A stretch of DNA of 25,087 nucleotides from the IMG/VR virus record IMGVR_UViG_3300047392_000131, positions 1 through 25,087 of that record; one strand, 5' to 3'. Below the pieces are notes generated by a model. It did no database searches, had not been told where the DNA came from, and saw only the letters and a list, made by a program, of their open reading frames with translations. How positions within the stretch are numbered: the stretch's first letter is position 1; each line of letters opens with the position of its first letter. The DNA is from a virus. Shown here in pieces: positions 1-14,620 of this stretch. The translations under genes were made by a program, and so were the position numbers.

Positions 1-3000
1 CAAACTCGGCCAATTGCTCGGCGCTAGCGGGTTTGTTGTTGCGCTTGTAGTAGCGCACGTCCTTCTGTTCTGACAGGTCCTTGCGCAGGGCATCCAGGCG
101 TCGGGCCACGTCTTCGCGCGACTTGGCCACGAACTGGTCGGCCTTCGCCGTATCTTCGACGTACTTCTCTGCCTTGCTGAACATCGTTTCCATGACGTTC
201 TTGTAGGCGTCACGCAACTCCTGGCGCACACCAGAATTGACGCGCTTGAAGCCACCGCTGGCCATGTCGTTTTCAGCGCCTTGAATGTCAAACGTCTTGG
301 TGCCGTCGGCTCCCACGCGCCACTCGCTTGAGGCTTTGCCGTCTTGGCGTCCAAAGTAGTGATCCAGGGCGTGAAGCCACTCATGCGCCAAAGCGCCTGC
401 ACCGTTCATCTTGGTCAGGTTGATGACGGCACGGCCGCGTTCGTAGTGCGCCACGGCGCTGGACAATCCCTGGCCGCGTGCACCAAATGCCAGCGCCAGG
501 TCGCCATTGAGACCGATGGCTTTGGCCGGGATTTGCATCACTTCGGCCAGGTCCATCAATCCGTCGTAGGCGGCATTCATCACCTCTTGGCGCTCGGCCT
601 GGTTGTTCCAGTTGCCAAACTCCACGCCACGGAAACCAAAGGTCACCATGAAGTCCTTGCCCTCCACGTCGCCCGTGCGGCGCGCCACACCTGTTCGGGC
701 GGTGTTGTCTGGCCTTGGCAGGTCGGCTTCGCCAAACGTCGTGTTGGTTTCCAGAATGGCCTGGGCGTTCTTGGCCATGTACTCCATCGCGGCCACGCGG
801 CTGGGGAATGTCTGATCCACCACCTTCACGCGCTTGCGGTCGTTGATGTCGCGCCAGATTTCATAGTTGTATTCGCCGTCTTCGCGCTTGGTGCCCGTCG
901 GTACCGCGCGGTGCTTCATGGACACGGCGGCCAATGGGATGGCATCCAGTGCCTCTTGCTCGGTGGCGAATGTGTTGTTGCGGCCGCCCACTTGTTTGGG
1001 CTGGCCCATCCAGTCCTTGCTGCGATTGTCGTGAATGGTCCAGCGGCCTTCGTTGTCACCGGCCACGATCTGGGACACGTCAAAGCGACGGGCCCATGCT
1101 GGCCGCTCGTCTTTGGTTTTGGTGCGGCCAGTGCGGCCGGTGCTGACTGCGGTGTCTTTGCGTGCGCCACCGATCTTTTCGCCGAAGTCCTCAATCTTGC
1201 CGGCCGGTTTTGCCGCTGCTCGTGGGTCTGGCGTTGGTTGCACGGTCGTGATGGCCACACCGCCGTCAAATGGATCGGTACTGGTGGCAGCCAGCTCGCC
1301 ATCCTCTGGGTTCCACCAAAGCGTCAATGGCTTGCCGACTCGATCGGCCTGCTTTTGAATTCGATTGGCCATTTCCGTTGCGTCAGCATCGGTGGAGCCT
1401 TCTTTCTTGAAGGCGTTGGCAATCGCTTCGCTCGGCGTCATGCCAGGCGTCGGCATGGGCGCTTGCGCATCCTGCGATGCGGGCGGGCTACTGAAGATGT
1501 CGGTCTGGCCACGGGATGCGGCCACGTCGGCAGGTCGATCGCTGCCAGTCAGAGCGAAGTCGTCGCGCTGGGAATCGGCCTGCGCGCGCTGCTCGGCTTC
1601 GCGTTGTTGCTGCTGGCGCTCCTTCTCGGCTTGTTCGAGCTTGGCCAGGCGGTCTTCGATTTCCTGCGGGGTATAGCTGGTCAGGCCTTCGGCTTGGCCG
1701 TCTTCGGCGGGTCGGCCCGCTTGAGCTGATCCAGTGTCTTGCGGTCTTGCGGGTCGGGCTGCTTGCCCGCCAGCATCTTCTTGAACAGGCTCACGCCCTG
1801 CGGGCTGCGCCAGACTTTCTTGGCTTCCTCGTTCATTCGCGGGCCTCAGTTGGTTGATGACATCGCCACGGCTTGCGCGCGGCACTTCCCCGAACATATC
1901 CGAGGCGGGCTTGTTCGCTTCAGTGTAGGCCATGTCAGCGGCGGCTCCGAGCGCTTCGACCACGGGCTTGACGCTGCGCGAGTTGCGCACAAACAGGTCT
2001 AGCACTTCGCCGACGAGCGGATCGGCGGTCATGTCCCTTTGCTGCGCGGCCTTGGCCAGGGCGATGCCCTCGCGGCGCGCGTTCACGGCAATCTCGGCCG
2101 CCTGCGTCACCACGTCGCGGATGTCCAGCGCGCCGGCACCTTCCAGGCGGGCCATCTTCGGGGCTACCTGGGACAAGGCCGACAGGATCAGTCTCGCCTC
2201 GGGGTCTTGCGCCTGCGCGTACAGGCGTACGAGCTGGTCATTGCCGTAGGCGCGGGCAAACACCGCCGCCGCGATCCGGTCCACCGCCTGCTTGGTCGGC
2301 TGGCCGTTGGTGTCCAGCAAGCCGCCCTGCTCGGACTGCGGCATGGCGCGCACGAACTGGCGCACCGTCTCTGGCGTGATGGAGCCGTCTTCAGCGAACT
2401 GAAGCGCATCCAGGCTCACGCGCTGCGCGTCATTTTTGGCCTGCTCCACGGGCGACAGCGACAGGTTGCCGACCGTGTTGGAGACATCGCCGATGTCGGC
2501 GGTCAGCGAATCCTTGGGCATGATGCGCACCAGGACCGGCTGCTTCATGCCCTTGATGATTTTCTTGTCGATACCGTGCAGGGCGTCGTCCATCAGCTCC
2601 TTGCGGTAGCCGTTGGCCTTCGCGTTGCCGTAGGCAGTCTGCAAGCCTGCGATGCGGCCATTGCCTGCAATCGCACGGATCGCCTGCACCTGGTCGTTGC
2701 CATAGTCCACATTGGCCGTGCCATCGGACTTGTTGGAGGCGAGCACCTGGTCGGCTTCGACCACGGCGTACTGCACGGGGATGCGCCGGCCATCGCTGGC
2801 CACGGCCACATCCGACTTGCCGATCTGCTTGGCCGGGACCGTGCCGCCGGAGACGACGGGTGCACCATTGGCAAAGTCGCGCGAAAAGCCCAGGCGGCCG
2901 TAATCCGGATTCGCCGCGATGCTGGTCATCTGCGCGACCGAGGAAGGCGTCGCACGGTTGCGGTTCTGGAGCACCATGCCGTCGCTCTGCGCAGCGGGCG

Positions 3001-3637
3001 GGGTCCATCCGGAGCCCATCAGGCGCTGGATCAGGTCGGACGGGGTGGAGACTGGGCTAGGCTCGGGCGACTGGGCACGCTGCGCGGCCGCGCGCTGCAC
3101 ATCGGGCGTCAGCCCCAGATTGTTCATGCGCTCGACCTCGGCCTGGATGGCGGCCTGCTGGTCGGATGGCATAGGGCTCGCGTTGCCCTGCGGATCGACC
3201 TGCATGGTTGGCTGCGGGTTGCGCACGGCAGGATCGAAGCCCAGCGCCAACGGTTGCGGATCGGGTTGCGACGCTGGCGCAGGCTCCTGGCGCTTGGGCA
3301 TCTGGTCGAAGATGCGCGCCACGGTCTGCTGGATGACCTGCGGCGTCTGGCGGTCGGCGATGTCCTGCGCGGCCTCGTCGATCGCTCGGGCGACCTGGCG
3401 CTCGATGCCGCCCTTGCCGATGTTCGCGGCGTTCGTGGCCACGTCAGAACCGGCCCCCACGCCCAAACCGATCATGCCGCCATACAGGCCCTGCTTGCCC
3501 ATGGCGTTCAGGTCGATCGCCTCGCCCTTGGCGGTCTGCTTGCCGACGTAGTTGGCGGACTCTTCCCCGCCTTCTTGCAGGAACTCCTTGGCTCCAGTCT
3601 TGACGGCGGACTTACCCGCCTCAATGACGCCAGCAAC
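1..3637 (-). CDS. Giant polyvalent protein, frameshifted continuation (ddrB-ParB-like and HEXXH domains; runs off left edge)
   Basis: A frame that is one base back from the preceding ORF is open from 4066 to the window edge, without a stop. It resumes the protein at 3637 (VAGVIEAGKSAVKTGAKEFL). No ATG, GTG or TTG occurs in this frame before ATG 3502, so an independent start is unlikely. Domains in order: low-complexity helical text to about 3000; a ddrB-ParB-like domain at about 2960-2400 (GRRIPVQYAVVEADQVLASN, AGNGRIAGL, LSLSPVEQAKNDAQR); a Gln-rich linker; and a large polyvalent-protein-associated (LPD-type) domain at about 1090-340. The latter carries HEWLH (bases 371-385), an HEXXH zinc-binding motif, in the text AHEWLHALDHYFG. 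Proteins of this type are thought to be ejected with phage DNA and to act on host defences or DNA. The exact LPD number is from memory. Confidence 0.78.
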
Positions 3638-4269
3638 TTGCCCAGCACCAGGGATGCAGCGCCGCTGATGCCAGCGCCCTGGTACCGATCGCCCAGAGCC
3701 TGACCCTCGGTATCGGCAAAGGTCTCGGCCGCGTTCTGCGCTGCGCCAGTGACGACAGAGGCTCCGGTCGCGGCTGCACCTGGCGTGACGCTGGCAGCGC
3801 GAGGCATGATCTTGGCGATGGTCGGCAGTGCCTTGACCGCACCGGCAGCAGCGCCAGCCGGCAGGAACATCGAGCCCACGGTAGAAATCGCCGTGTCGGC
3901 CGCCGCACGCGGGTTTTGCAGAACGATGCCAGGCAGGTCCTTGATACCGACGTTCGGGTCTTGCAGCGCCTGGTTGATATTGGCCTTCTGCGCGTTCAGC
4001 GCATCGGAGCCAATCACCTCGTCGATGGCCTTCATGCCCTTGGACATGCGCTTGGACACACCGAGGTCAATGGTGTCACCCGTGAGCATGTTGCCCAGGT
4101 CAGCCACGCCCTTGACCAGGGTCGGGCCGATTTTCAGGCCAGCGGCTGCAACATCCCGAAGGTTGTCGGTCCAGCTCGCGTCAGGAGAAGATGTTTCCCC
4201 ATCGAGCTTCCCGGTGAATTCTTTTAGCTTCGGCTGGTCAAGTTGGCCGGAAAACTCTTTCAGGGGCAT
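3508..4269 (-). CDS. Giant polyvalent/ejection protein, N-terminal part ending in a frameshift
   Basis: The ATG at 4269 has GGAG upstream. The first 210 codons encode natural text: a repeated LKEFSGQLDQPKLKEFTGKL opening, then helical and Ala/Gly-rich segments (IGPTLVKGVADLGNMLTGDT; GSMFLPAGAAAGAVKALP). After about codon 211 the frame turns into Ser/Pro/Arg-rich text and stops at 3508. The natural continuation lies in another frame (see the entry at 1-3637). So this ORF is the head of a much longer gene, cut by an apparent 1-base loss near 3637 (a missing G would make AAG GTT GCT continue the protein). The last 40 residues of this ORF are therefore not likely to be native. Confidence 0.7.
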   Translation of the reverse strand: MPLKEFSGQLDQPKLKEFTGKLDGETSSPDASWTDNLRDVAAAGLKIGPTLVKGVADLGNMLTGDTIDLGVSKRMSKGMKAIDEVIGSDALNAQKANINQALQDPNVGIKDLPGIVLQNPRAAADTAISTVGSMFLPAGAAAGAVKALPTIAKIMPRAASVTPGAAATGASVVTGAAQNAAETFADTEGQALGDRYQGAGISGAASLVLGKLLASLRRVSPPSRLEPRSSCKKAGKSPPTTSASRPPRARRST

Positions 4270-4272
4270 GCA

Positions 4273-5397
4273 TCACTCCATGACGTACTTCTTCCCGTCG
4301 GGCGCTTGAAAGACAGGCTTGCCGTTAGAGGTGCCAATCTGCTTGTAGCCTGCGGGGACTTTCGCCTCCATTTTTTGGTCGCCAGTGCTCGGCGCCGGAT
4401 TTTTGTTTCCGGTGATGCCGCGTCGGGCCAGGCGTTTGTTCACTTCGGCGGTAATTTGCTCTTCGGTGTAGCTGGGGTAATCTTTTTCGACAGCCGCGAT
4501 GATCGCGTTGCGAGTCTTCGCATTGGTCGCATCCACGCCAGTGCCTTTGGCTGGAACCACGCCAATCGTGCGGGTCTCGCCACGGGTCGGAATGGCCGTC
4601 ACCGTGGCCTGGCCAGTCTCGTCGTCCACAATGGTCACGGGCTTGTCCAGGCCGCTCACCACACGGTCACGACGCGCATTGGACAGGCCGGCGGATGCGT
4701 TGGCGTTTCCGGCTTGCGCCAGGTTCTCACTGGCCTTGGAGCGCTCGACTTCGCCGAACAGTTTGGCCAGCACCGGATTGGCCTCGAACTGGCCACCGGT
4801 CAGCGCATTGAGGGAAAACCCGGTGTTGCCCACGTTGTCGAATGGGGCCTTGCCGCTCGTGGCGTAGAAAGCCTGCGCAGTCGGCAGCGCCAGCGCAGGG
4901 TTCTGGATGACAGCGGCCCGGTCGCGCATTTTTTGCTCAATGTCGGCCGCCTGAGCCATGTCGTCCACCTTGCCACCCACACCCAGCGTCTTGTTGAAGA
5001 GGGCGATCGAGCGGGCAATGTTGCTCATCTTGGCCGGATCGACCGGCGCGGGTTGCACCGGGCCGACTCCATCGGCCGGCACGTCATAGGACGGACCGAA
5101 GCTGCCCGACTGGATGAAGCTCTCAATGGCCGCGCGACGATCCAGCGGCACCTGCTGCTCGATCATCACGGTCTTGAGCGGATCGCGTTGCAGACCGAGC
5201 TTTTGGGCCAGCAACTCGGCTTCGGTACCGGCCTTGTTGGCGGCCATGTTGTGGTGGTAGACCTGCGCGCCCTTAAGAACGGCGTCCTGCTCGGCGTTCT
5301 GGCGGTACATGGGCGCGAGCGCTGCGGCTTTGAACATGTTGGCCAGGCCCTGGCCAGCGGCGAGCGCACCGCCGTTTCCGTCAATGGTGAAGTTCAC
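4273..5397 (-). CDS. Internal virion / ejection-type protein, 374 aa
   Basis: The start is GTG at 5397, overlapping the previous stop (GTGA), with GGAGG upstream. The N-terminal 120 residues are helical (NMFKAAALAPMYRQNAEQDA); the middle is Ala/Asn/Gly-rich with ENLAQAGNANASAGLSNARR at about residue 227. Near the C-terminus lies a well-defined helix (SYTEEQITAEVNKRLARRG) and a short GYKQIGTSNGKPVFQAPDGK end, a common C-terminal pattern in phage structural and internal proteins. The next gene is the giant polyvalent protein, which places this in the ejection-protein block. No enzymatic motif is visible. Confidence 0.6.
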   Translation of the reverse strand: MNFTIDGNGGALAAGQGLANMFKAAALAPMYRQNAEQDAVLKGAQVYHHNMAANKAGTEAELLAQKLGLQRDPLKTVMIEQQVPLDRRAAIESFIQSGSFGPSYDVPADGVGPVQPAPVDPAKMSNIARSIALFNKTLGVGGKVDDMAQAADIEQKMRDRAAVIQNPALALPTAQAFYATSGKAPFDNVGNTGFSLNALTGGQFEANPVLAKLFGEVERSKASENLAQAGNANASAGLSNARRDRVVSGLDKPVTIVDDETGQATVTAIPTRGETRTIGVVPAKGTGVDATNAKTRNAIIAAVEKDYPSYTEEQITAEVNKRLARRGITGNKNPAPSTGDQKMEAKVPAGYKQIGTSNGKPVFQAPDGKKYVME

Positions 5398-6125
5398 TGC
5401 CCGATCCTCCGAAGTGCGTCCAGCCAGGACGTGTTGCCCGAACCCGTCCAGCCCTTAGATGCGTTGAGCGTAGCGATCGGGTCGGCCGTGGCGTTGGCCG
5501 CAGCGAGGTCAGCCCCCGTGACCTTGCCCGTCGATCCGCCTGCCATGAGCCCAGCCGACCCCACGCCCTGGAGCACGCTCCCGCCAAACTGGAGTCCAGC
5601 ATCAGGCCGACCAGCAACCTGGATGGCAATCTGGTCGGCACCCTGGTTGCCGCGCGAAAAGTTTCCAAGCTGGTCGATCGCCTGCCCGGCGTCCATCAGG
5701 CGGATGCCCTCGTTCATGCGCAGGCGATTGGCCGACGTGGACTTGCCCAGAAGGCGGGCCAGTTGCTCGGCCGCCTTCAAGGACTGCACGTCCGATGCGG
5801 CCTTGGCCGTGGTGTAGTCGTTGGAGACGTTGCCTTGGGTCGTGCTCTGCTGCGCACGGATCGCCTGGCTCTCACTGACCGGGGCCAAAAGCTCCTGCGT
5901 GATCTGGTCAGCAATCTGAGTCTGCTCGGTACGACGGTCCTCGGTGTTGAACTCGCGCGCCGTGCCCATGGCCTTTTGCTCGGCCTGGATTTGCAGATCG
6001 CGCTGGCGCTGGAGACCTTCGCGAATGGCCGCGTTTTGGCGTGCCTGCGCATCCTGCGCGGCTTTGTACTGCATGGCCGAGCCGGCGACCATGGCAACAA
6101 GTGAGGCGATGGTAATCGGGTCCAT
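5394..6125 (-). CDS. Internal virion / ejection-type protein with N-terminal hydrophobic segment
   Basis: The gene follows a strong GGGAGG ribosome-binding site. Residues 1-18 (MDPITIASLVAMVAGSAM) form a hydrophobic, membrane-active start; a long Gln/Ala-rich coiled-coil region (about 20-160) follows. The C-terminus has Gly-Ser-rich segments with a GLMAGGSTGK stretch. Podovirus internal proteins such as T7 gp14 have this layout: a short hydrophobic N-terminus followed by helical, Gln/Ala-rich text. The product would be ejected with DNA to help cross the cell envelope. Its stop overlaps the next gene's GTG start. Confidence 0.65.
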   Translation of the reverse strand: MDPITIASLVAMVAGSAMQYKAAQDAQARQNAAIREGLQRQRDLQIQAEQKAMGTAREFNTEDRRTEQTQIADQITQELLAPVSESQAIRAQQSTTQGNVSNDYTTAKAASDVQSLKAAEQLARLLGKSTSANRLRMNEGIRLMDAGQAIDQLGNFSRGNQGADQIAIQVAGRPDAGLQFGGSVLQGVGSAGLMAGGSTGKVTGADLAAANATADPIATLNASKGWTGSGNTSWLDALRRIGQ

Positions 6126-6138
6126 ATCTCAACCTCCC

Positions 6139-6801
6139 TCAGTTGCCTGCATAGCGCTGGGTTGGCGCGGATACGCCGTACCACTGCTGGCCATAGCCGG
6201 CACCGGTCGCACGCCCCGCGTTCGCCTGGTTGGCCAGGTATGCCTGGCTCAGGTCGTTGAACAGGCTGCCGATGCTGGAGCCCGAGCGCTGCTGCGCTAC
6301 GCTGTCCGCGTTGACCTTCAAGCCCTGCAAGGCCATCTGCGAGGCGGTACCGGTGTCGATGCCCGACTGCGCCATGCTGATGAGATTCGAGCGGGTCTTT
6401 TCATCGGCCGCTCGCAGGTCCGCCGCCGCCTGGTCGGCAATACCCCCTGCGCGAAGCAGGCCCTCGTTGGTGCGCCGGTTCAGCTCCATGTTGCTGTCCA
6501 CGTCCACCGAGCCGCCCAATAGACCCGTGCGCGCCAGGGCAAAGCGGTTGGTCCGCTCGGCTTCCTTGGCCTGGCGGTCAACCTCAGCCTTGTTCAGGTC
6601 GTAGACCGTGCTGCGCTGATCACCATAGAGCGTGTCGCGCGCCTTGGCCGGATCGCCTGCGACCCAGTTGCCACTGGCGTCCTTCACCTTGTTGGCAAAG
6701 ATGTTATTGATTTCGTCCGTGGCCGCCTTGATACGCGCCTGACGATCTTCCTCTTGTCTCCGGCTTTCGGCTGCCGGATCGCCACCACCACCACCGCCCA
6801 T
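6139..6801 (-). CDS. Internal virion / ejection-type protein, 220 aa
   Basis: The ATG at 6801 follows the previous stop directly (TGAAATG). The N-terminus is glycine-rich (MGGGGGGDP). Next comes a helical Glu/Gln/Arg-rich stretch (QEEDRQARIKAATDEINNIF), then Asn/Ala/Gln-rich segments with NKAEVDRQAKEAERTNRFAL. The C-terminus is Gly/Tyr/Gln-rich. This composition and the position among internal proteins fit small ejection proteins (like T7 gp14-15 type or P22 gp7-type), which leave the capsid with the DNA. No transmembrane segment is visible. No exact family is recognised. Confidence 0.6.
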   Translation of the reverse strand: MGGGGGGDPAAESRRQEEDRQARIKAATDEINNIFANKVKDASGNWVAGDPAKARDTLYGDQRSTVYDLNKAEVDRQAKEAERTNRFALARTGLLGGSVDVDSNMELNRRTNEGLLRAGGIADQAAADLRAADEKTRSNLISMAQSGIDTGTASQMALQGLKVNADSVAQQRSGSSIGSLFNDLSQAYLANQANAGRATGAGYGQQWYGVSAPTQRYAGN

Positions 6802-6802
6802 T

Positions 6803-7222
6803 TCAGACCTCCAACTTCTGCCGCACCACCGTGTAGGCCGGCTCAAACCCCTTGCGGGCGAGCAACCGGGTCATGCCCGGCGCGCACCGCGCTTCAATCA
6901 CTTCGGCCCCGGCTTGCCGACACCACTGCCTGAACGTCTCCCAAAAGGCGTCCATGGCCGCATCCATTTGCTCGCCGGCAATCGCCATGACGTTCACCGC
7001 GAGCTGACGCGGGTAGTGGATGAACTCAAAGGCCCCGGCCAGCACTGGCTGATCACCCTCGTACACCGCACCGATAACCGCCCTGCCATCGCGCACCATC
7101 CCGAACAGGTCTTGTGGCTCGAAGTCACCGCAGGCCGGGCAGCGCTTCCACAGCGCCAACATCGCGTCCTGCTGATCTTCAAGCCCCTCGTAGTCGCCGA
7201 CGGAGAAAAATCGCACTCGCAT
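6803..7222 (-). CDS. GNAT-like acetyltransferase-fold phage protein, 139 aa
   Basis: The start at ATG 7222 overlaps the previous stop. The middle (RAVIGAVYEGDQPVLAGAFE) and C-terminal part (RLLARKGFEPAYTVVRQKLE) show the strand-helix-strand shape of a GNAT fold: an antiparallel sheet, a helix with FWETFRQWCRQAGAEVIEAR, and an end in which a glycine turn precedes the last strands. The usual acetyl-CoA loop (Q/RxxGxG/A) is not evident, so enzymatic activity is uncertain. Podovirus genomes often carry a GNAT-like small protein in the tail or internal-protein region (T7 gp13 region by position). The role is inferred only from place. Confidence 0.6.
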   Translation of the reverse strand: MRVRFFSVGDYEGLEDQQDAMLALWKRCPACGDFEPQDLFGMVRDGRAVIGAVYEGDQPVLAGAFEFIHYPRQLAVNVMAIAGEQMDAAMDAFWETFRQWCRQAGAEVIEARCAPGMTRLLARKGFEPAYTVVRQKLEV

Positions 7223-8610
7223 CAGGTTGGCCCCAGGTCGTCGAAGTACAGCGTCACCGCGTCCAGACGGAAGGGCTTGCTGTCCAGGTTTCGGAACTTC
7301 AGCGAGAACTCGGTGCCGCAGCACTCCACCGGGATCAATCCTCCGCCGCGCGTGTTGCCCTTGACCCTCACCGGGTCGGTGAAGGCCGTGGGATCGCGCA
7401 CGTCAAAACCGACCGAGAACTCGCAGCGCCCCTCCATCACCAGGTCTGCGCCATAGATGCGCTTGTTGCGGCCGGGTTTTTTCAGGTCCATGTACGGGAG
7501 CTGGATGACCACCTCGAAGGGCTGCCCCTGGTCGGCATGCACATCCGGGTCGAGCTTGTAGACCGCATCGCCGCAGCGGATGTACAGCGTCTGGCCCAGC
7601 TCGGCAAAGGCGTCCGCCGTCGCCGGCAGGAAGTAGTGCGACCAGGCCGCGATCTTGGCCGTGCGGGAAATTGAGTAAACGAAAAGCTCGTTGCCCATGG
7701 CGCAGACGTACTGACCCGTGCCGTAGAAGTAAAACGCCTTGGGCGTGAAGCCCCCCGCCTTGACGCGCGAGCGCACCAACGAGTCGATCGGCGAGCCCAC
7801 GTCCACGTCTGCCAGGTTGTTTGTGAGCTGGAGCGTCGTGATCGAGCGAAAGCCGTAGTCCGAAAGGAAGTACAGGTCGCCCGAGACGTTGGAGACCGTG
7901 CGCGGGTAGCTCGTGCCGACGTTCTCCACGATGTCCTGGAGCGCCATGGCGGCCGGGTCCGGGTCCACCTTCCAGACCTGCGCGCCGTCCTTGGACAGCA
8001 CGATCAAGTTGTTCTGGTAGACCCCGAGCGCGTTGGCCCCGCGATCGCCGCGCGAGTTGAGCCCGGTCGGCAGGAAGCCCGCATCGTTGGCAGCGCTCCA
8101 GTCGCGCGGGTTGCCGGTCTTGCAGTAGCGCACCGTATCCCCGTTGACCGCGAACACCTTGGATGCAAGCTTGACGACGCCAGCCGTGTCCGGACAGGCC
8201 AGGTCGGCAATGTGCGTCGATGCGCTGCCGTCCAGGTAGTGATGCTCCTGAAACCCGCCCTGGTACCGGATGGCCGCGTAGATGAAGCCATTGAAGACAT
8301 CGGCGAAGGACACATCCTCGACCGGGTAGCTGCCCGAGGAATACGGCACGCGATTGGCCTGGAACAGCGCATTGGCGTGCGTCACCGTGCCCTGGCCGTA
8401 GAACGTGTGCAGCTTGCCGAAAGCCGCGAACAGGCCCTTGGTGCCCGGCTCCAGCGTGGCCACCAACGTCAGACCAGGGCGCTTTTCCGTGGCCAAGCCC
8501 GTCGTGACGTAGGCGTTCTTCATCTCCAGCAGCCGGTTGGCATCGGAGACGGACGCACCCTTGCGCAGGTCTATGCCCAGGTCGAAGCGGTTGAAGGTGA
8601 TGTCCGCCAC
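7222..8610 (-). CDS. P22 gp10-like packaged-DNA stabilisation / tail hub protein
   Basis: This 462-residue beta-rich protein begins with GTG at 8610 (GTG GCG GAC), with AGGGG upstream. The opening (FNRFDLGIDLRKGASVSDAN, then a MKNAYVTT segment and RPGL) and the repeated blade-like strands fit P22 gp10-type proteins, which plug the tail channel and keep packaged DNA in place; tail tubular protein B of other podoviruses is similar. Blades are visible as recurring G-x-L-Y-F or AFYFYGTGQYVCAMGNELFV units through residue 380. The C-terminus has a short beta extension (FRLDAVTLYFDDLG). The next gene starts inside its stop (TGATG), so the two are coupled. The assignment is by pattern and order; homology is from memory. 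Confidence 0.7.
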   Translation of the reverse strand: MADITFNRFDLGIDLRKGASVSDANRLLEMKNAYVTTGLATEKRPGLTLVATLEPGTKGLFAAFGKLHTFYGQGTVTHANALFQANRVPYSSGSYPVEDVSFADVFNGFIYAAIRYQGGFQEHHYLDGSASTHIADLACPDTAGVVKLASKVFAVNGDTVRYCKTGNPRDWSAANDAGFLPTGLNSRGDRGANALGVYQNNLIVLSKDGAQVWKVDPDPAAMALQDIVENVGTSYPRTVSNVSGDLYFLSDYGFRSITTLQLTNNLADVDVGSPIDSLVRSRVKAGGFTPKAFYFYGTGQYVCAMGNELFVYSISRTAKIAAWSHYFLPATADAFAELGQTLYIRCGDAVYKLDPDVHADQGQPFEVVIQLPYMDLKKPGRNKRIYGADLVMEGRCEFSVGFDVRDPTAFTDPVRVKGNTRGGGLIPVECCGTEFSLKFRNLDSKPFRLDAVTLYFDDLGPT

Positions 8611-8611
8611 T

Positions 8612-9313
8612 TCAGCCCCTCAGCCGGTACCCGTCGCCGGACTTCACGACTTGCGCCTCGCGCGGCTCCTTGCCGCCCGCGAAGTAGCGCTGGCCTTCCT
8701 TCTGCCTGGACTTCTCCTTGTTCAGCATGGTCTGGAACGCCTGCGCCGGGGCCTGCGCGTCCGGATGACGGTAATGCGCCTTGGCGTTGGCCAGGGCGTA
8801 GAGGAACACCAGGCGGTCAGGAACGCTTGGGCGATCGCCAGCCTGGCTGAAGCGGCTCTTGATCGCCGTGTGCTCGACGATCAGGTCATAGGCGCGCTCG
8901 GGCACGGGCCAGACTTCGAGCTGGCCGTTGAGCGTGCCGTACTTCTGGGGTTGCTGGCGCAGGCTCTCGAAGGACCGATCGCTCTCGGTGATGCCGTAGG
9001 TCAGCGGCTCGCGGATCGTGCCCGAGACCTTCACCCAGACGGAAATGACGGCTGCCGGGTCGATGTCCTCGCCGGCCGCATCGTCGTGCCAGTCGTAGAG
9101 GTACGAGTCAGCCTGCGTCGTGATGATCGACTTCTTGCGCATGGCCGGCGGGTCCAGCTCCGCGAAAACGAAGTCGTGCGCTTCCTGAAGGTAGCTCTTC
9201 AGGGTCGCCTCGTTGTTCTTCGCGGCCGAGCCCTGCGCCACGAAGCCCAAGCGAACCCGCAGCTCGGTCAGCAGCTCACCGAGGGTCTTGTAGCGCTCCG
9301 CGAGCCCGTTCAT
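8612..9313 (-). CDS. Putative head-tail adaptor (tail tube A-like) protein
   Basis: The N-terminal helical part (LGELLTELRVRLGF, followed by NEATLKSYLQEAHDFVFAEL) resembles the start of podovirus head-tail adaptors such as T7 gp11-type and similar proteins that sit under the portal ring. It is followed by a beta-rich part with SYLYDWHDD and LNGQLEVWPVPERAY, and then by a helical stretch (LVFLYALANAKAHYRHPDA) and a basic tail. The length (233 aa) and the position before the gp10-like gene fit. The assignment is by gene order and gross pattern, since sequence similarity in this family is weak. Confidence 0.6.
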   Translation of the reverse strand: MNGLAERYKTLGELLTELRVRLGFVAQGSAAKNNEATLKSYLQEAHDFVFAELDPPAMRKKSIITTQADSYLYDWHDDAAGEDIDPAAVISVWVKVSGTIREPLTYGITESDRSFESLRQQPQKYGTLNGQLEVWPVPERAYDLIVEHTAIKSRFSQAGDRPSVPDRLVFLYALANAKAHYRHPDAQAPAQAFQTMLNKEKSRQKEGQRYFAGGKEPREAQVVKSGDGYRLRG

Positions 9314-9585
9314 TGGCCGGCCTCCATGCCAATCATGGACAGGGCCTTGTCGCGCATTGGATGCGCTTCTGGCGCAGGCTGCCAGTCGGTCGGGATGCTC
9401 AGGTCCTCGGGTACGCGTGCCATGACAAGCGTGCCGGCATCGAGCTTGAAGAAGTGATCATTGATGTTGACCACCAGCACGCCAGCCGCGTCGCGTTGCT
9501 TGAACGGCACGCGGGTTAACGCAGTATGAAAGGCCGCCTGGTTCCAGTAGGCCTCGTTTAGAACAGGTTGATCTTGCTCTTCCAT
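9310..9585 (-). CDS. Hypothetical phage protein, 91 aa
   Basis: The chosen ATG at 9585 has an AAGGGG ribosome-binding site and starts just after the previous gene's stop. The longer frame from 9660 would overlap the membrane-protein gene and adds Cys/Gly-rich text. The protein contains VLVVNINDHFFKLDAGTLVM, a beta-like segment, and ends in a short helical tail (MRDKALSMIG). It may be a small structural or tail-assembly protein, given its coupling (ATGA) to the head-tail adaptor candidate. I do not recognise a family. Confidence 0.55.
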   Translation of the reverse strand: MEEQDQPVLNEAYWNQAAFHTALTRVPFKQRDAAGVLVVNINDHFFKLDAGTLVMARVPEDLSIPTDWQPAPEAHPMRDKALSMIGMEAGQ

Positions 9586-9587
9586 GC

Positions 9588-9782
9588 TTACCCCTTTGGC
9601 AGTGCCCCGTGACTGGACAACCACATCGCCAGGCCCAGCACAGCCGCACCGGTCAGCCATGCAAGCTTTTTGAGCACGTTCTTGCCGACCTCGGTGTAAA
9701 CCTTGTTCAGCGCCACTTCAGCCGCTCGCTCAGCGATGGCTTCAATTTGTTCGTCGGTCAATGGAATGTCCTTTTGCGGCAT
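9588..9782 (-). CDS. Small single-pass membrane protein, 64 aa
   Basis: A strong AAGGAGG ribosome-binding site sits between the radical SAM stop and this ATG. The N-terminal 38 residues form an amphipathic helix (LTDEQIEAIAERAAEVALNK). One hydrophobic segment (residues 40-57, LAWLTGAAVLGLAMWLSS) is a likely transmembrane helix, followed by a short hydrophilic end. This layout is seen in small phage proteins of unknown role near tail genes. A holin role is possible in principle, but no endolysin gene is nearby and holins usually have two or more segments or other features. No function is assigned. Confidence 0.65.
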   Translation of the reverse strand: MPQKDIPLTDEQIEAIAERAAEVALNKVYTEVGKNVLKKLAWLTGAAVLGLAMWLSSHGALPKG

Positions 9783-9793
9783 CGGCGTCCTCC

Positions 9794-11146
9794 TTATGCG
9801 GCCACGGATTGAATGGGGATCACGCGCTTTTTGGGCGCGTCGGGCACGCCATTCACCAGACCGAAAATGTCTTTGCGGTCCTCGCGGAAATCGCCGTCAA
9901 TGAAAACCGGCACGCAGCCGGTCAGGAACTCAATACCCGCCGCGAAGATCGGCACGGCATCGGAGTAAGCGTTGTCGCAGGATCGGTCCCACAGAGGGCC
10001 TTCCAGGAACATGCAAGAGCCCTGGCAAATCTGGAGCATCGGGCAGCTTGGACAGTCCTTGCGCTTGCTCCAGTGCGTGGACGTGTTGAGCATGACGGCA
10101 GCCAGGTCGGAGACATGGCCGATGCGATGCGACTCACCATTTGGAGCCGCACTGGCGGCGCTCACGTTCTGGCAGGTCAGCACATTGCCGCGCAAGTCAA
10201 CGGCAATGTTTTCGCCCTTGTCCATGCCGCACTTTTGCCCAAGGCTGGATGCAGGGCGGCCAGTGCGGATTGAGTTGACGAAGGACGCGACGCGGTTACG
10301 TACTGCCTGGACGTTGGCGGCCTGGCCGGTGCGGACCTCGTGGAACGCCAGATTGCGGAAGCCGTGCAGCTCGTCGGCCTGGAGCGACTGCGCCAGACCG
10401 CCCTCGTCGTAGGCATCCACGAAGCCGCCCTCGCCGATCGGCACCATCTGATCGCCGGTCAGTTCAACGAAGAAGCGCTGGATGGCCGCGCGCGAGACGT
10501 TCGAGCGGTTCACCATCGCGTTGAAGCTGATACGACCCTGCGGAGCCAAGCGGGCGTACAGCGCCATGATGGCGGCGCGCTTCTCTGGGTCTTGCAGCGG
10601 ATCAGGGCCGCGCACATGCTGGCCAGGACCGTCGTGCGAGATACCGACGTTGAAGCCCATCTGGTCTAGCCAGTCGTTGGTCTCTGCATTGAGCAGCGAG
10701 CCGTTGGTGATGACCGATAAAGCAGCGTTGGGGTACTTGGCGCGGATCGCCTCGGCCAGCGGGCGCAGGGTCTTGATGTAGACCAAAGGCTCGCCTCCCC
10801 AGAACTCAACCGCCTCGGGCGGCGTTGTCACCCACGAATCGAGGCCGCTGATGAAGGCATCCACGTCGCCGGGGTTGGTCTCATCCGCACGGGGTACAAA
10901 CCTCTGCGAGCAATATTCGCACTCGTAGTTGCACGACAGGCCCAGGCTGATCTTGAGCACGCGCGGACTGGCCTTTGCCAATGGGGTGTCGCGCGAGACA
11001 ACAGGCGCATCCGGGAGCGGCTGCACGGGCAGGCGCGTGCCAATGTTGTTGCCGCTGGCATCCGCGAGGTCGCTGGTCTGGTTGTCGTATTGCATCCAGA
11101 CGATGGAGCCGTCAGGCTTGCGGGCGTGGATGGTGAACTTAGCCAT
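9794..11146 (-). CDS. Radical SAM protein with SPASM domain (putative peptide-modifying enzyme)
   Basis: The 450-residue protein has the radical SAM cluster motif CX3CX2C (C72, C76, C79), the SAM-binding GGEP (117-120), and a C-terminal SPASM domain. The latter shows C306-X13-G320-X4-C325, then C365-X2-C368-X5-C374-X3-C378, then C390, exactly the seven-Cys pattern that binds two auxiliary [4Fe-4S] clusters. SPASM enzymes mature peptides and proteins (sactipeptides, PqqE, sulfatase maturases). Residues 1-60 are an extra N-terminal part with strand-like text (FTIHARKPDGSIVWMQYD) that may bind the substrate; no standard RRE domain is obvious. The gene follows the oxygenase with an 8-base overlap. 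The nearby substrate candidate is the Cys/Asn-rich tip of the fibre. The specific reaction is unknown. All key residues are present. Confidence 0.9.
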   Translation of the reverse strand: MAKFTIHARKPDGSIVWMQYDNQTSDLADASGNNIGTRLPVQPLPDAPVVSRDTPLAKASPRVLKISLGLSCNYECEYCSQRFVPRADETNPGDVDAFISGLDSWVTTPPEAVEFWGGEPLVYIKTLRPLAEAIRAKYPNAALSVITNGSLLNAETNDWLDQMGFNVGISHDGPGQHVRGPDPLQDPEKRAAIMALYARLAPQGRISFNAMVNRSNVSRAAIQRFFVELTGDQMVPIGEGGFVDAYDEGGLAQSLQADELHGFRNLAFHEVRTGQAANVQAVRNRVASFVNSIRTGRPASSLGQKCGMDKGENIAVDLRGNVLTCQNVSAASAAPNGESHRIGHVSDLAAVMLNTSTHWSKRKDCPSCPMLQICQGSCMFLEGPLWDRSCDNAYSDAVPIFAAGIEFLTGCVPVFIDGDFREDRKDIFGLVNGVPDAPKKRVIPIQSVAA

Positions 11147-11753
11147 TGATGCGATCGACCTTGATATTGAAGAGGATATTCATAAAGGGCTGCTCGCCGA
11201 CATAGGGCTTTTGAAAGTGGATGGCCCTGGAATCAAAGGCGACAAGCAGGCCGCGGTGCGGTTTGATCCAGAACTTGGCATGGGCCTCCCATGGCATCAG
11301 AAGCCCACCAAAGCCCGAAGAGCGCCAGGCCGGATTGCAGATGGCAAAGCCATTGGGCCCGTACTGGTTGACTTGCTCCATCAAATCGGCATTGGTGTCC
11401 AGCTCGGGGCCAAACGGGAAATAAACCGCTTGCAGGTCGCACTCGTCTTCATCGTTGTGCGGCATGATTTCTGTGCCATGGTGGCGCACGACTTCGCGGC
11501 CTTGCACATGCTTGATGCGGCCATGCGGACCCATTAGCTCTTGAATCTTTTGTGCAACATGGGCCAGCAAAACGTTGCAGCTTTCGATGCTGCCGTCAAA
11601 GATGTTGTGGGCCTGCCTATTCCAGATTTCTTCGCCATCGGTTTTCATGGCGCTATGGACTTGCAGCAGGTCCTCATACAGCGTCTGGTCGAACGCAGTG
11701 GGGGCATTGAGGGCCCAAAGGCCTGCCACCGTAGGAAACAGGTTCAACCTCAT
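11139..11753 (-). CDS. Probable 2-oxoglutarate/Fe(II)-dependent oxygenase
   Basis: The protein (204 aa) has the C-terminal signature of 2OG-Fe(II) oxygenases. A possible iron triad is H99-x-D101 (MPHNDEDE) and H179 (FDSRAIHFQKPY). The LLVAFDSRAIHFQKPYVGEQ stretch followed by ILFNI strands is what prolyl-4-hydroxylase-like enzymes show around their distal His. The 78-residue spacing is normal. One departure: the Arg/Lys usually found 9-10 residues after the distal His, which binds the 2OG carboxylate, is Gln188 here, so another residue may do this, or the activity differs. It is coupled to the Ig-like gene and overlaps the radical SAM gene by 8 bases. Its natural target may be the collagen-like fibre, but few Y-position prolines exist there. 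No experiment is known to me. Confidence 0.68.
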   Translation of the reverse strand: MRLNLFPTVAGLWALNAPTAFDQTLYEDLLQVHSAMKTDGEEIWNRQAHNIFDGSIESCNVLLAHVAQKIQELMGPHGRIKHVQGREVVRHHGTEIMPHNDEDECDLQAVYFPFGPELDTNADLMEQVNQYGPNGFAICNPAWRSSGFGGLLMPWEAHAKFWIKPHRGLLVAFDSRAIHFQKPYVGEQPFMNILFNIKVDRING

Positions 11754-12607
11754 TGCACGTTCACCATCAGGTCATCGGTGCCTGTAAAGAACTTGAAGCC
11801 CACCTTGATCTTGGCCACTTCACCCGCGCTCATGCCATCAGTCCGAAAGATGGTGGAGCCCAATCCTGCGACCGTCATTTGTCGGCGCGCCACCAAGTAG
11901 CCCGCAGTCGATTCAAGGTAAACCTCGGCCTCCCGGTCAACAATGAGCTGGCCATTGGGAGTTTCCAAACGGAACTGGATGGTGGCCTCGCCGTTGGCTT
12001 GGAGGTCGATGGATGGGCCGCCAACAAATCGGACAACTGGCAGCGTTTCTTCGCGCACCAGGGATAGGGTGATGGATGGTATGACCTCGATGTCGCCGCT
12101 GACCTTGACCAGCTCAGGAGAGAACACGTTAAAGCCCAGCGTCCAGTCATCAATTGGCGATGTTTTAAAGGGCACCAGGATGTGGCCTACCGGATGGGTC
12201 TGCAGCACAGAAGCATGGAAGGCCTGCGCATCCATCTTGGAAGCCATGGTGGCCGCGTACAAGTTTGGTGTCTGCTGGTAGACGCCATCGGTCGCGCTGG
12301 ATCGCTCCATCATGCCGACCGGCGCATAAAGCATGAAGCTTGCATGGTCAGAAAACTCTGCATGCTGGCGCAGGCTGGCAAGGTCAATAGATCGCTTGTA
12401 CATGGGTTCGCCATGCACCCCATAGTTACCGCGCCACTCGACAATCATGGCTTGGTTAAAGTATTTTCCGCCGCTTGGATGGTTCTCCAGTGGGTTGCCC
12501 ACAAACTCGCGCTGCATGATGGCGCGAACGCTGTAGGTCAGCAGCGTGCCGTCGAGCGTGACATCAAGGGCGAAGGGGGAATTTTTATTGCCCGTGTAAA
12601 GTTTCAT
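11750..12607 (-). CDS. Unknown fibre-cassette protein with probable Ig-like C-terminus, 285 aa
   Basis: The gene starts 9 bases after the fibre stop with a good AGAGGG ribosome-binding site, and its stop overlaps the oxygenase start (ATGA). The first 190 residues are unfamiliar; they contain an aromatic, mixed alpha/beta segment with MIVEWRGNYGVHGEPMYKRS near residues 54-73. The last 85 residues show the strand-turn rhythm of bacterial Ig-like (Big_1 or invasin-type) domains, with IDLQANGEATIQFRLETPNG, a VYLESTAGYL strand pair and a final KIKVGFKFF strand. It could be a second fibre subunit or tip, a chaperone, or a substrate-presenting partner for the downstream enzymes. No signal peptide, no membrane segment and no Cys residues are visible, so it is not an obvious thioether substrate. 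Confidence 0.6.
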   Translation of the reverse strand: MKLYTGNKNSPFALDVTLDGTLLTYSVRAIMQREFVGNPLENHPSGGKYFNQAMIVEWRGNYGVHGEPMYKRSIDLASLRQHAEFSDHASFMLYAPVGMMERSSATDGVYQQTPNLYAATMASKMDAQAFHASVLQTHPVGHILVPFKTSPIDDWTLGFNVFSPELVKVSGDIEVIPSITLSLVREETLPVVRFVGGPSIDLQANGEATIQFRLETPNGQLIVDREAEVYLESTAGYLVARRQMTVAGLGSTIFRTDGMSAGEVAKIKVGFKFFTGTDDLMVNVQ

Positions 12608-12616
12608 GTTTCCCTC

Positions 12617-14284
12617 TTAGCAGCAGTCGCAGTTGCAGTTGCAGTTGTAGCGGGTGCTATATGCTCCTAAGCGAATCGTTGAGCCTCCATCAAACAATGC
12701 GTAAAGTTTGTAAGCGTCATTTGGGTTCTGATCGCCGCAGTTGAAGCAATTGTCGGTAACAGTACAGTTGGCTGCGCCTTGAAAACCCGAATTAACGTTA
12801 TAGGTGCGTATGCAATTGCTTACCGCTGAAAAAAAGTAGTCGTGCAGCCAGCCGTAGTTAGAGGACCAGAGCTGCCCGCCGTTGTTGTCGTAGAAGCGCC
12901 AGTTCCCATCGCTGCCCAATAGGCCAAGCGTTCCCTGGTTGTGGTGCACATGGCGAGTGCCGCCCCAGTCGGTGTCCTGCATGCGCAGATAGTTCGCCGA
13001 GCTGGAAATCGTCAGATCAGGGACCGTGAGCGCACCGCTCATCGTGTCGCCTGTCTTGGCGACGCGACTGGTCACGTCACCGGCAGGACCTTGTGGACCC
13101 TGGGGACCTTGCGGACCTTGCGGTCCAGTCAGACCTTGAGGACCAGCAGGCCCGGTCGCTCCGGTCGGCCCCTGCGGGCCGGTTGCACCTTGCGGGCCAG
13201 TTGGTCCAGTCGGACCAGCGGGACCGGTCGGGCCTTGGACACCCTGAACGCCTTGTATTCCTTGAGCTCCTTGCTCGGCGAGCTTGCCCCATTGGGTTAA
13301 TGCGGCGTCGGAGGGGACGACGTTGGTAGACGACTGCTTAGCAATCCACGAGCGGCCGTTGTAGAAGACGGCATCGTCGGCAACGTAGGCGGTCGCGTTG
13401 CTCCACTCGCCTCGCCAAGTCATGCCGCGCATGCCCTGCGGGCCTTGGATGCCTTGCGGCCCCTGGATGCCTTGCGGCCCTTGCGGACCCATAGGTCCGG
13501 TCATACCGATCGGGCCGGTTTCACCTTGCACGCCTTGCACGCCTTGGGGTCCAATGGGACCAACCGGGCCCATAGGACCAACCGGGCCTTGCACGCCCTG
13601 ATCGCCCTTCTCACCTTTGCCGAATGGCACGCCACCGGACCACACGCCAGGCGTTGTGCCCAAGCGCAAGTACAGAAAGCCATTGTCGGTGGACAGAAAA
13701 GCAAAGCCGTGCGGCTCGTTGTTGTAGTTGGCGCGGTCGGAATAGACGCCCACGGCATCCACGTCAAAGGACATGCCGGCCACGCCCTGGATACCTTGCG
13801 GGCCTTGTGCACCTTGAGGGCCTTGCGGACCGATTGGTCCCTGAAGCCCTTGCTCCCCCTGCGGGCCTTGCGGCCCGGTCGCACCGGTCGCGCCAGTGTC
13901 ACCCTTGACGCCCTGAGGACCTTGCACGCCCTGCGGCCCTTGCGGACCAGTCAGGCCTACCGGACCACGCTCGCCAGGCAGTCCTTGCGGGCCCACGGGA
14001 CCAGGTGCGCCCTGAAGGCCTTGCATGCCCTGCGGGCCAGTGGCTCCCTGCGGACCCTGCGGGCCGGGGACACCGTTGCGCAGTTCGGGCTTAAGTTGAT
14101 CAAGGCCGACGACCTGGTTCTTGAGTGAGCCGTCGTCTTTTTGAATCTGGGCCAGATTTGTGCGAATCTGGTTGATGGATTGCGCAGCCGCGTCCAGCTC
14201 CGCGTTCAGGGCGGCATGGTCGGTGTCATCGCCCTCGCGCTCGGTGAAATCGGTATCGCGGGAATACTCTTGCGGCTGCGCCAT
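12617..14284 (-). CDS. Collagen-like tail fibre with Cys-rich C-terminal tip
   Basis: This 555-residue protein is a probable trimeric fibre for host adsorption. Residues 1-70 form a helical, coiled-coil-like base. Gly-X-Y collagen blocks occupy 71-170, 224-287 and 339-402 (about 75 triplets, mostly Gly-Pro-Gln). Between them lie small beta modules at about 171-221 and 288-335; the second ([20 protein letters not shown], then a WIAK strand) resembles the carbohydrate-binding-type modules common in phage fibres. The C-terminal domain (403-555) starts with the typical GDTMSGALT fibre motif. All nine Cys residues are at 491, 507, 513, 516, 548, 550, 552, 554 and 555, and the tip reads NCNCNCDCC. 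Enzymes encoded just downstream (oxygenase, radical SAM) may modify it. GC falls to about 38% over 12781-12840. A GGAG ribosome-binding site supports the start. Confidence 0.85.
12623..12646 (-). repeat. Hexanucleotide tandem repeat coding for Asn-Cys
   Basis: Four units of GCAGTT (the first is GCAGTC) lie in tandem at the 3' end of the fibre gene. Three give Asn-Cys and the variant gives Asp-Cys. Gain or loss of a unit would keep the frame and change the number of Cys residues at the fibre tip. Confidence 0.75.
13079..13270 (-). repeat. Collagen-like repeat block 3 (21 Gly-X-Y triplets)
   Basis: This block encodes 21 triplets plus Gly, with many Gly-Pro-Thr and Gly-Pro-Gln units. It joins directly to the C-terminal fibre domain. 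Gly-Pro-Thr is a known O-glycosylation site in some bacterial collagen-like proteins; there is no evidence for that here. Confidence 0.9.
13424..13615 (-). repeat. Collagen-like repeat block 2 (21 Gly-X-Y triplets)
   Basis: This block encodes 21 triplets plus Gly. It begins with a charged GEKGDQG cap, which is a common nucleation or trimer-stabilising text in collagen-like proteins, and ends at GMRG. Confidence 0.9.
13775..14074 (-). repeat. Collagen-like repeat block 1 (33 Gly-X-Y triplets)
   Basis: These 300 bases encode an uninterrupted run of 33 Gly-X-Y triplets plus a final Gly, dominated by Gly-Pro-Gln. Only three prolines are in the Y position (residues 73, 94 and 103), the position that collagen prolyl 4-hydroxylases modify. 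Thr is common in Y. Confidence 0.9.
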
Positions 14285-14305
14285 CGTTGCTTCTCCTGCC
14301 GGGGA

Positions 14306-14620
14306 TTACTTCTCGACCTTTTCGGTCTTCTCGGCTTTGACCTTCACGGCCGACTTCGTGACCAGCTCGGTCAGGCGCTCGCCTTCGTCATCGCCGTAGA
14401 CCTTGGAGACCTTGCCTGCGCCGTACTTGGCGCTCAGGCGCTCGTACTCGGTGGCGGCATCGACCTCGATGACAGCGGCTTGATCGCCTTCGATGACGTT
14501 TTCCTTGCCGAACATCTGGCGCAGAAGGGTCAGCTCATAGGGCGGGACAGTGACGGGGGTGATGGTGTTGGCATCACGGCGGATCGTGACGTTCAACAGG
14601 GGGACATTGGTCTTGCTCAT
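14306..14620 (-). CDS. Hypothetical phage structural-region protein, 104 aa
   Basis: This small protein follows the capsid gene and precedes the fibre gene. It has a GAGGA ribosome-binding site. The N-terminal half is beta-like (LLNVTIRRDANTITPVTVPP) and is followed by a helix (YELTLLRQMFG). The last 25 residues are almost entirely Lys, Glu, Val and Ala, which suggests a flexible charged tail. It may be a minor head protein or part of head-tail joining, but I do not recognise a family. No catalytic motif or membrane segment is visible. Confidence 0.6.
   Translation of the reverse strand: MSKTNVPLLNVTIRRDANTITPVTVPPYELTLLRQMFGKENVIEGDQAAVIEVDAATEYERLSAKYGAGKVSKVYGDDEGERLTELVTKSAVKVKAEKTEKVEK

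Follow-up and report, generated by a model that had tools for sequence, protein, structure and literature searches.

The window, by which we mean the whole 25,087-base stretch of an IMG/VR virus record analyzed here, carries a series of phage genes that leads up to a giant gene at its left end. Upstream of the giant gene, the transcript order is terminase, portal, major capsid protein, collagen-type fiber, SU10-type head-tail adaptor, and three proteins without a family, and a similar order of ORF sizes is found in the relatives L004, L005, and L006. The adaptor (8612..9313, minus strand; PF24175, E 3.8e-16) supports the assignment of the region to the late operon of a short-tailed phage. Neighboring genes closer to the giant gene encode a protein at 6139-6846 and a candidate internal protein at 5394..6125 (minus strand), both without a convincing family match, and a candidate internal or ejection protein at 4273..5397 (minus strand), which has no family match and is matched by no phage record. 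An acetyltransferase-like (GNAT) protein, recognized by eye and without a family match, is encoded at 6803-7324 (minus strand), between the adaptor and the internal-protein genes. No phage record is close to the window at the DNA level. For near relatives, the hosts are MAGs assigned to the Burkholderiales (three loci), and the short-tailed phage in the window most likely has a Burkholderiales host.

The main open frame of the giant gene, P0001, occupies 2..3637 on the minus strand and runs off the left end of the window; its 1,212 residues bear out the first-pass annotation, which had described a giant protein with more than 1,200 residues visible. The earliest ATG within this frame is at 3502. 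An N-terminal piece of the giant protein lies in a separate frame at 3508..4269 (minus strand), identified as an ORF and from the intact ORFs of relatives. Near position 3630, the window is missing 58 bases compared with all five aligned relatives (L004, L005, L006, L009, and L044), and because this gap is not a multiple of three the two pieces are in different frames. Each of the same five relatives has a single continuous giant ORF of 2,683-2,981 aa, so intact copies of the giant gene exist; among the sequences compared, the frame break is confined to this contig. Either a misassembly or a genuine variant could account for the gap. The window holds a fragment of a giant polyvalent protein whose whole length, judging from the relatives, would be roughly 2,800 aa.

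The ddrB-like ParB domain named in the first-pass annotation was recovered by Pfam (PF18763) at 2522..2977 (minus strand; P0001 residues 221-372) with E 2.4e-15 and 57.2 bits, above the Pfam cut-off of 27.6. It contains the GNGR motif with the ParB/Srx arginine (2654..2665, minus strand), and residues N117, G118, and R119 of this motif are unchanged in 17/17 aligned relatives. An AF2 model of the ParB part reached a pLDDT of 79, and structures of ParB, KorB, and Noc fill rows 1-7 of its structure comparison, with Z values of 3.6-4.9. Among the sequences of solved structures, there was no match to P0001.

The second effector domain is a zincin, with a core at 320..667 (minus strand) delimited by an NCBIfam match and by structure comparison. 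The NCBIfam family CLCA_X (NF041907) matches P0001 residues 981-1119, around HEWLHALD, with E 2.7e-32, and the presence of an HEXXH, a downstream Asp, and this significant profile match place the domain in a broad CLCA_X zincin clade, the score of 112.2 bits (106-138 bits in three full-length relatives) being below the curated family cut-off of 260 bits. HEWLHALD (362..385, minus strand) is an HEXXH zinc site with an Asp at +3. In the numbering of the 401-aa piece, H253, H274, E275, H278, and D281 are invariant in 16/16 aligned relatives, and HEXXHxxD is kept in 78/78 evaluable zincin loci, drawn from the best 80 of 547. The HEXXH is therefore no chance match, the metal site looks intact, and the loss of HEXXH in homologs, which had been named beforehand as evidence against a zinc-dependent domain around HEWLH, is not seen. 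One phage-type zincin clade has been described as having an Asp three residues past the HEXXH and a conserved His ending strand 2 (PMC5512222); the invariant His of AHYE (H253; 446..448, minus strand) is probably that strand-2-end His of Iyer et al. The prediction of a zincin-like fold around HEWLH fared less clearly. For the AF2 model of this part (pLDDT 69), the VIA rows are mainly zinc metalloproteases aligned over residues 178-316, all with Z below 8, and Foldseek returned nothing at E ≤ 0.001, so that the model is consistent with a zincin fold without being proof of it. In three of the full-length relatives (ORFs L006, 9269-17320; L004, 9308-18253; L005, 9311-17488; all plus strand), another HEXXH (HEILH or HELFH) follows the first at a distance of 246-458 residues and perhaps marks a second zincin.

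The domain between the conserved island (described below) and the zincin, defined by profile at P0001 residues 846-966 (740..1102, minus strand), does not reach E 1 with Pfam LPD5. LPD5 does match directly ahead of the zincin in L004 and L007, and our guess is that the domain is a divergent LPD5. LPD1, LPD5, and LPD38 are all found in full-length relatives and none reaches E 1 in the window's part of the protein; L004 has LPD5, LPD1, and LPD38, L006 has LPD1 and LPD38, and L007 has ART, LPD5, LPD1, LPD3, and a PLxRFG domain. With two unrelated effector domains, ParB and a CLCA_X-clade zincin, in one large frame, and with profiles, conservation, and gene order in agreement, the giant protein is almost certainly a polyvalent protein, as first proposed. 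The giant gene thus belongs to a known kind of protein, the polyvalent proteins of Iyer et al. 2017, which are likewise large, multidomain, encoded in late operons, and equipped with ddrB-ParB and zincin-like metallopeptidase domains; they share LPD domains with the window's full-length relatives, and their phage-type zincin clade shares the Asp three residues past the HEXXH and the conserved upstream His (PMC5512222). The window protein differs from them, as far as they are described in the parts of that paper compared, in its DFGEKIGGARKD island, described below, and in the coupling of this island to one zincin clade.

Different parts of the giant gene have different closest relatives. The stretch from 6199 to 1158 of the window is about 81-86% identical in DNA to L005 and L009, the stretch from 1203 to 1 is 95% identical to L006, and the ParB cassette from 2991 to 1701 is 87% identical to L007, a 64-kb contig that elsewhere in the compared region has no DNA-level match to the window. 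The proteins behave similarly, with P0001 residues 1-832 being 89% identical to L005 and residues 813-1212 being 97% identical to L006. The limits of the relatives' alignments and the L007 identity delineate an exchangeable ParB cassette at about residues 222-718 of P0001 (1484..2974, minus strand), and many ParB relatives align over about 206/222 to 696/718 only. L006, which comes closest to the window in the protease part, lacks a ParB match. Among the 38 giant ORFs that were collected, 23 have a HEWxH-type zincin site, 14 are without the CLCA_X zincin, and 1 is truncated. The mosaic DNA and protein identities and the zincin-less giants therefore show, at the level of sequence, that ParB and protease are inherited, and exchanged between phages, as separate cassettes. 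An obligate unit of ParB and zincin was rejected on the same 14 of 38 ORFs and on L006. Such cassettes account for the presence of different effectors in the same gene of closely related phages. The domain calls and protein class of the first-pass annotation stand, and what it overlooked were the separately exchanged cassettes and the conserved motif at their junction.

The change-over between the two parental sequences falls at 1203-1158, around GKIEDFGEKIGGARKD. Among sequence pairs with 80% or more identity on the downstream side of the island, 16/34 are unrelated upstream, compared to breaks in 1/144 and 0/27 for an HEXXH control at the same threshold. These counts come from related, non-independent sequences in which the linkers upstream of the island change rapidly, and the HEXXH control itself often breaks in one direction once the threshold is lowered to 60% (461/1,295); we therefore relied only on the 80% rows and on the DNA comparison.

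The zincin module starts with a nearly invariant 12-residue island, DFGEKIGGARKD, located inside a variable linker; in the window, the island IEDFGEKIGGARKD was identified by sequence comparison at 1154..1195 (minus strand), which is also the change-over point. When 36 non-redundant members are compared, the information content is about 4 bits at most of the 12 positions and about 1 bit per position in the flanks, which are rich in disorder-promoting residues, and AF2 gives a pLDDT of about 29-35 to blocks containing the island. A search of 2.9 million viral contigs with the 10-residue core written as degenerate DNA found at least 119 stretches. Among the 119 listed, 103 have a zincin downstream in the same ORF (69 sequences once near-duplicates are removed), 15 end within 420 residues, and 1 (L062) has no zincin; none has a zincin upstream of the island, and there is one island copy per ORF. 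The same 119 stretches contain 104 distinct 30-mers and use every synonymous codon, so selection on the island acts at the protein level, and a DNA or RNA signal was rejected. In the reverse direction, loci were collected by zincin patterns only, and of the best 80 of 547, which lean toward the window's close relatives, 78 show 9 or more of the 12 island residues upstream of the zincin; the other two have only 62 and 148 residues upstream. At these best 80 loci, the controls reached a maximum of 6 of 12 in the downstream part and 7 of 12 with shuffled motifs. Among the 23 zincin-bearing giants, 21 have the strict island, L043 has 11/12, and L007 has 9/12. Island and zincin start are separated by about 150 to 330 residues, and the spacer is of two or more types.

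CLCA_X was found in 22 genomes (23 matches) among 299 searched, and the 17 standalone chromosomal CLCA_X proteins (frames of 256-333 aa) carry the island in 0/17 cases; the zincin fold therefore does not need the island, and a reading of it as a requirement of the fold is contradicted. Three giants among these CLCA_X matches do carry it, with 10-12 of 12 residues. A further giant, L271, shows no more than a degenerate form (about 5/12 by eye) in which GG is absent and F-G-E-K-L is kept, and the matches L268 and L272 are fragments that stand outside the island count. In the 299 genomes of G001's family, the island pattern has three matches. The Cupriavidus plasmid protein L274 has the island at residue 1,504 of the portion read, and the annotated frame of the Bosea plasmid protein L275 has none. 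In two proteins from other mobile elements it stands at the N terminus, with no cargo ahead, namely in L131 (residue 4 of the piece read) and in the Magnetospirillum plasmid protein L273 (residue 10), and a pure cargo-release site is therefore disfavored. L062 (giant ORF 7059-14459, plus strand) keeps the island and has no zincin: 26 residues past the island, its sequence is joined to a segment that in relatives lies 488-559 residues past the island, as if the protease module had been lost in one piece. A literature text search for GEKIGGARKD, IGGARKD, and GGARKD found none, peptide strings not always being printed as text, and the island is absent from the compared parts of PMC5512222 and of the other key paper; such searches are weak evidence of absence, and the island appears to be undescribed so far.

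P1 DdrB, which belongs to the Dar antirestriction system, is an obvious point of comparison. It has a ParB-like domain (about 26% identity over P0001 residues 335-583) and, like the window protein with its predicted virion location, combines this domain with a zincin in one late, virion-associated protein. It differs in being 995 aa long, in having an HELGH zincin of another type, and in lacking the island; the window protein, which probably has nearly three times this length, shares neither zincin type nor length with it and does not qualify as an orthologue. The CLCA_X family is the closest named zincin family, with its HEXXH and downstream Asp (PMC3650047; NF041907), but the window's 112 bits are below the 260-bit cut-off and the standalone members are without the island (0/17). 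Among 19 phage records that match the module there are no Burkholderia phages. One likeness is to the E. coli phage PhiR12_3 (L276), in which a late gene encodes a giant protein of 2,789 aa containing LPD5, LPD1, and LPD38 together with an HEWFH site; it differs in having a MuF_C domain in place of a ddrB-ParB match and a degenerate island (8/12, without GG). In Pseudoalteromonas phage Y3 (L277, 12392-15475, plus strand), an annotated ADP-ribosyltransferase directly follows a giant gene with ParB and zincin.

The earlier placement of the giant gene in an ejection-protein position fits the gene order, with its SU10-type adaptor, three family-less proteins, and then the giant gene, and the fit stops short of proof. 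The JC1 protein gp69, DarB-like and from the Bcep22-like podoviruses, offers an analogy in position only: it is the giant product of the last gene of the virion operon, 4,515 aa long, and was detected with 51 unique peptides in purified virions, as reported for JC1 (PMC9144972). P1 DdrB is likewise described as present in P1 virions (PMC9024508). By analogy, the giant gene occupies the locus where comparable podoviruses encode virion-internal proteins, and its product is probably located in the virion. Exit from the capsid and protection of the entering DNA, which had also been proposed for the protein, would follow by analogy from what is seen in P1 DdrB and in other giant proteins of virions.

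We propose that the giant protein would be packed in the phage head and enter the cell together with the DNA. There, the ParB cassette would work on DNA or nucleotides and, in the manner of P1 DdrB, help the genome past host defense. The zincin, presumably a protease, would cleave or otherwise act on its own polypeptide. The island would then be a cis element, either a cut site between the N-terminal effectors and the remainder or a docking or gating segment. Self-cleavage at a conserved site is known for CLCA proteases (PMC3650047). P1 DdrB undergoes processing ahead of packaging, and Iyer et al. suggested that the protein's own metallopeptidase does this (PMC5512222). We therefore favor a cis-acting zincin, with the island as its recognition, cutting, or gating element. 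The two-way coupling of island and zincin counts in favor of the island as a cis element of the protease, serving self-processing or regulation, and this is its most likely role. Action of the zincin in cis is slightly favored, and a cut made exactly at the island is rather unlikely. A further, tentative step takes DFGEKIGGARKD to be a signal, so far undescribed, that acts in cis within a transplantable protease module consisting of the island, an LPD5-type domain, the CLCA_X zincin, and LPD1. Phages and plasmids would place this module in giant injected proteins, where it would cut the N-terminal effectors or switch them on. Against the explanation stand the islands without cargo in L131 and L273, the GG-less forms, the absence of the island from P1 DdrB, the loss of the zincin in L062, and the mediocre zincin model, and we regard the account as a whole as evenly poised between right and wrong. 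In many phages the genes for giant polyvalent proteins rank with the largest, and the processing of these proteins, although predicted, has scarcely been put to the test. An element of 12 near-invariant residues that goes with a single protease clade makes self-processing directly testable; if the account is true, one short peptide would reveal the processing point of many uncharacterized phage virion proteins.

The island could instead serve the protease module as an intramolecular segment for regulation or docking, with no cut site, such as a helix packing against LPD5 or against the zincin, or a segment that blocks the active site until ejection. Its retention without preceding cargo in L131 and L273, the F-G-E-K-L of the GG-less L271, and its variable distance from the zincin are what such a segment might show, whereas its location in a variable, disorder-promoting linker of low pLDDT and the known self-cleavage of the characterized CLCA cousins (PMC3650047) point the other way, and we consider this version possible, if somewhat doubtful. 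A zincin that cuts host proteins after injection, with the island merely marking the module boundary, would suit the free exchange of modules, as expected of effectors, and Iyer et al. name activity following injection as one alternative (PMC5512222); yet a passive boundary would not need most of its 12 positions to be conserved at about 4 bits each, and all 17 standalone CLCA_X proteins do without the island, making this reading improbable. Least probable is that the giant protein is a structural or assembly part of the head or tail that is not injected and whose domains are relics. DarA and Hdf are head-shape proteins of P1, and the gene is placed among late structural genes, but the metal-site and ParB residues remain invariant while whole cassettes are swapped, unlike what is seen in a structural part.

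Elsewhere in the window, a radical SAM protein (9794-11146, minus strand; PHROG 1802, E 7e-60) is encoded near the collagen-repeat tail fiber (12617-14284, minus strand), which has a C terminus ending in NCNCNCDCC. A third protein (11139-11753, minus strand) has an H-x-D...H pattern by eye, and the three proteins in 9794-14284 are a possible fiber-modification set.
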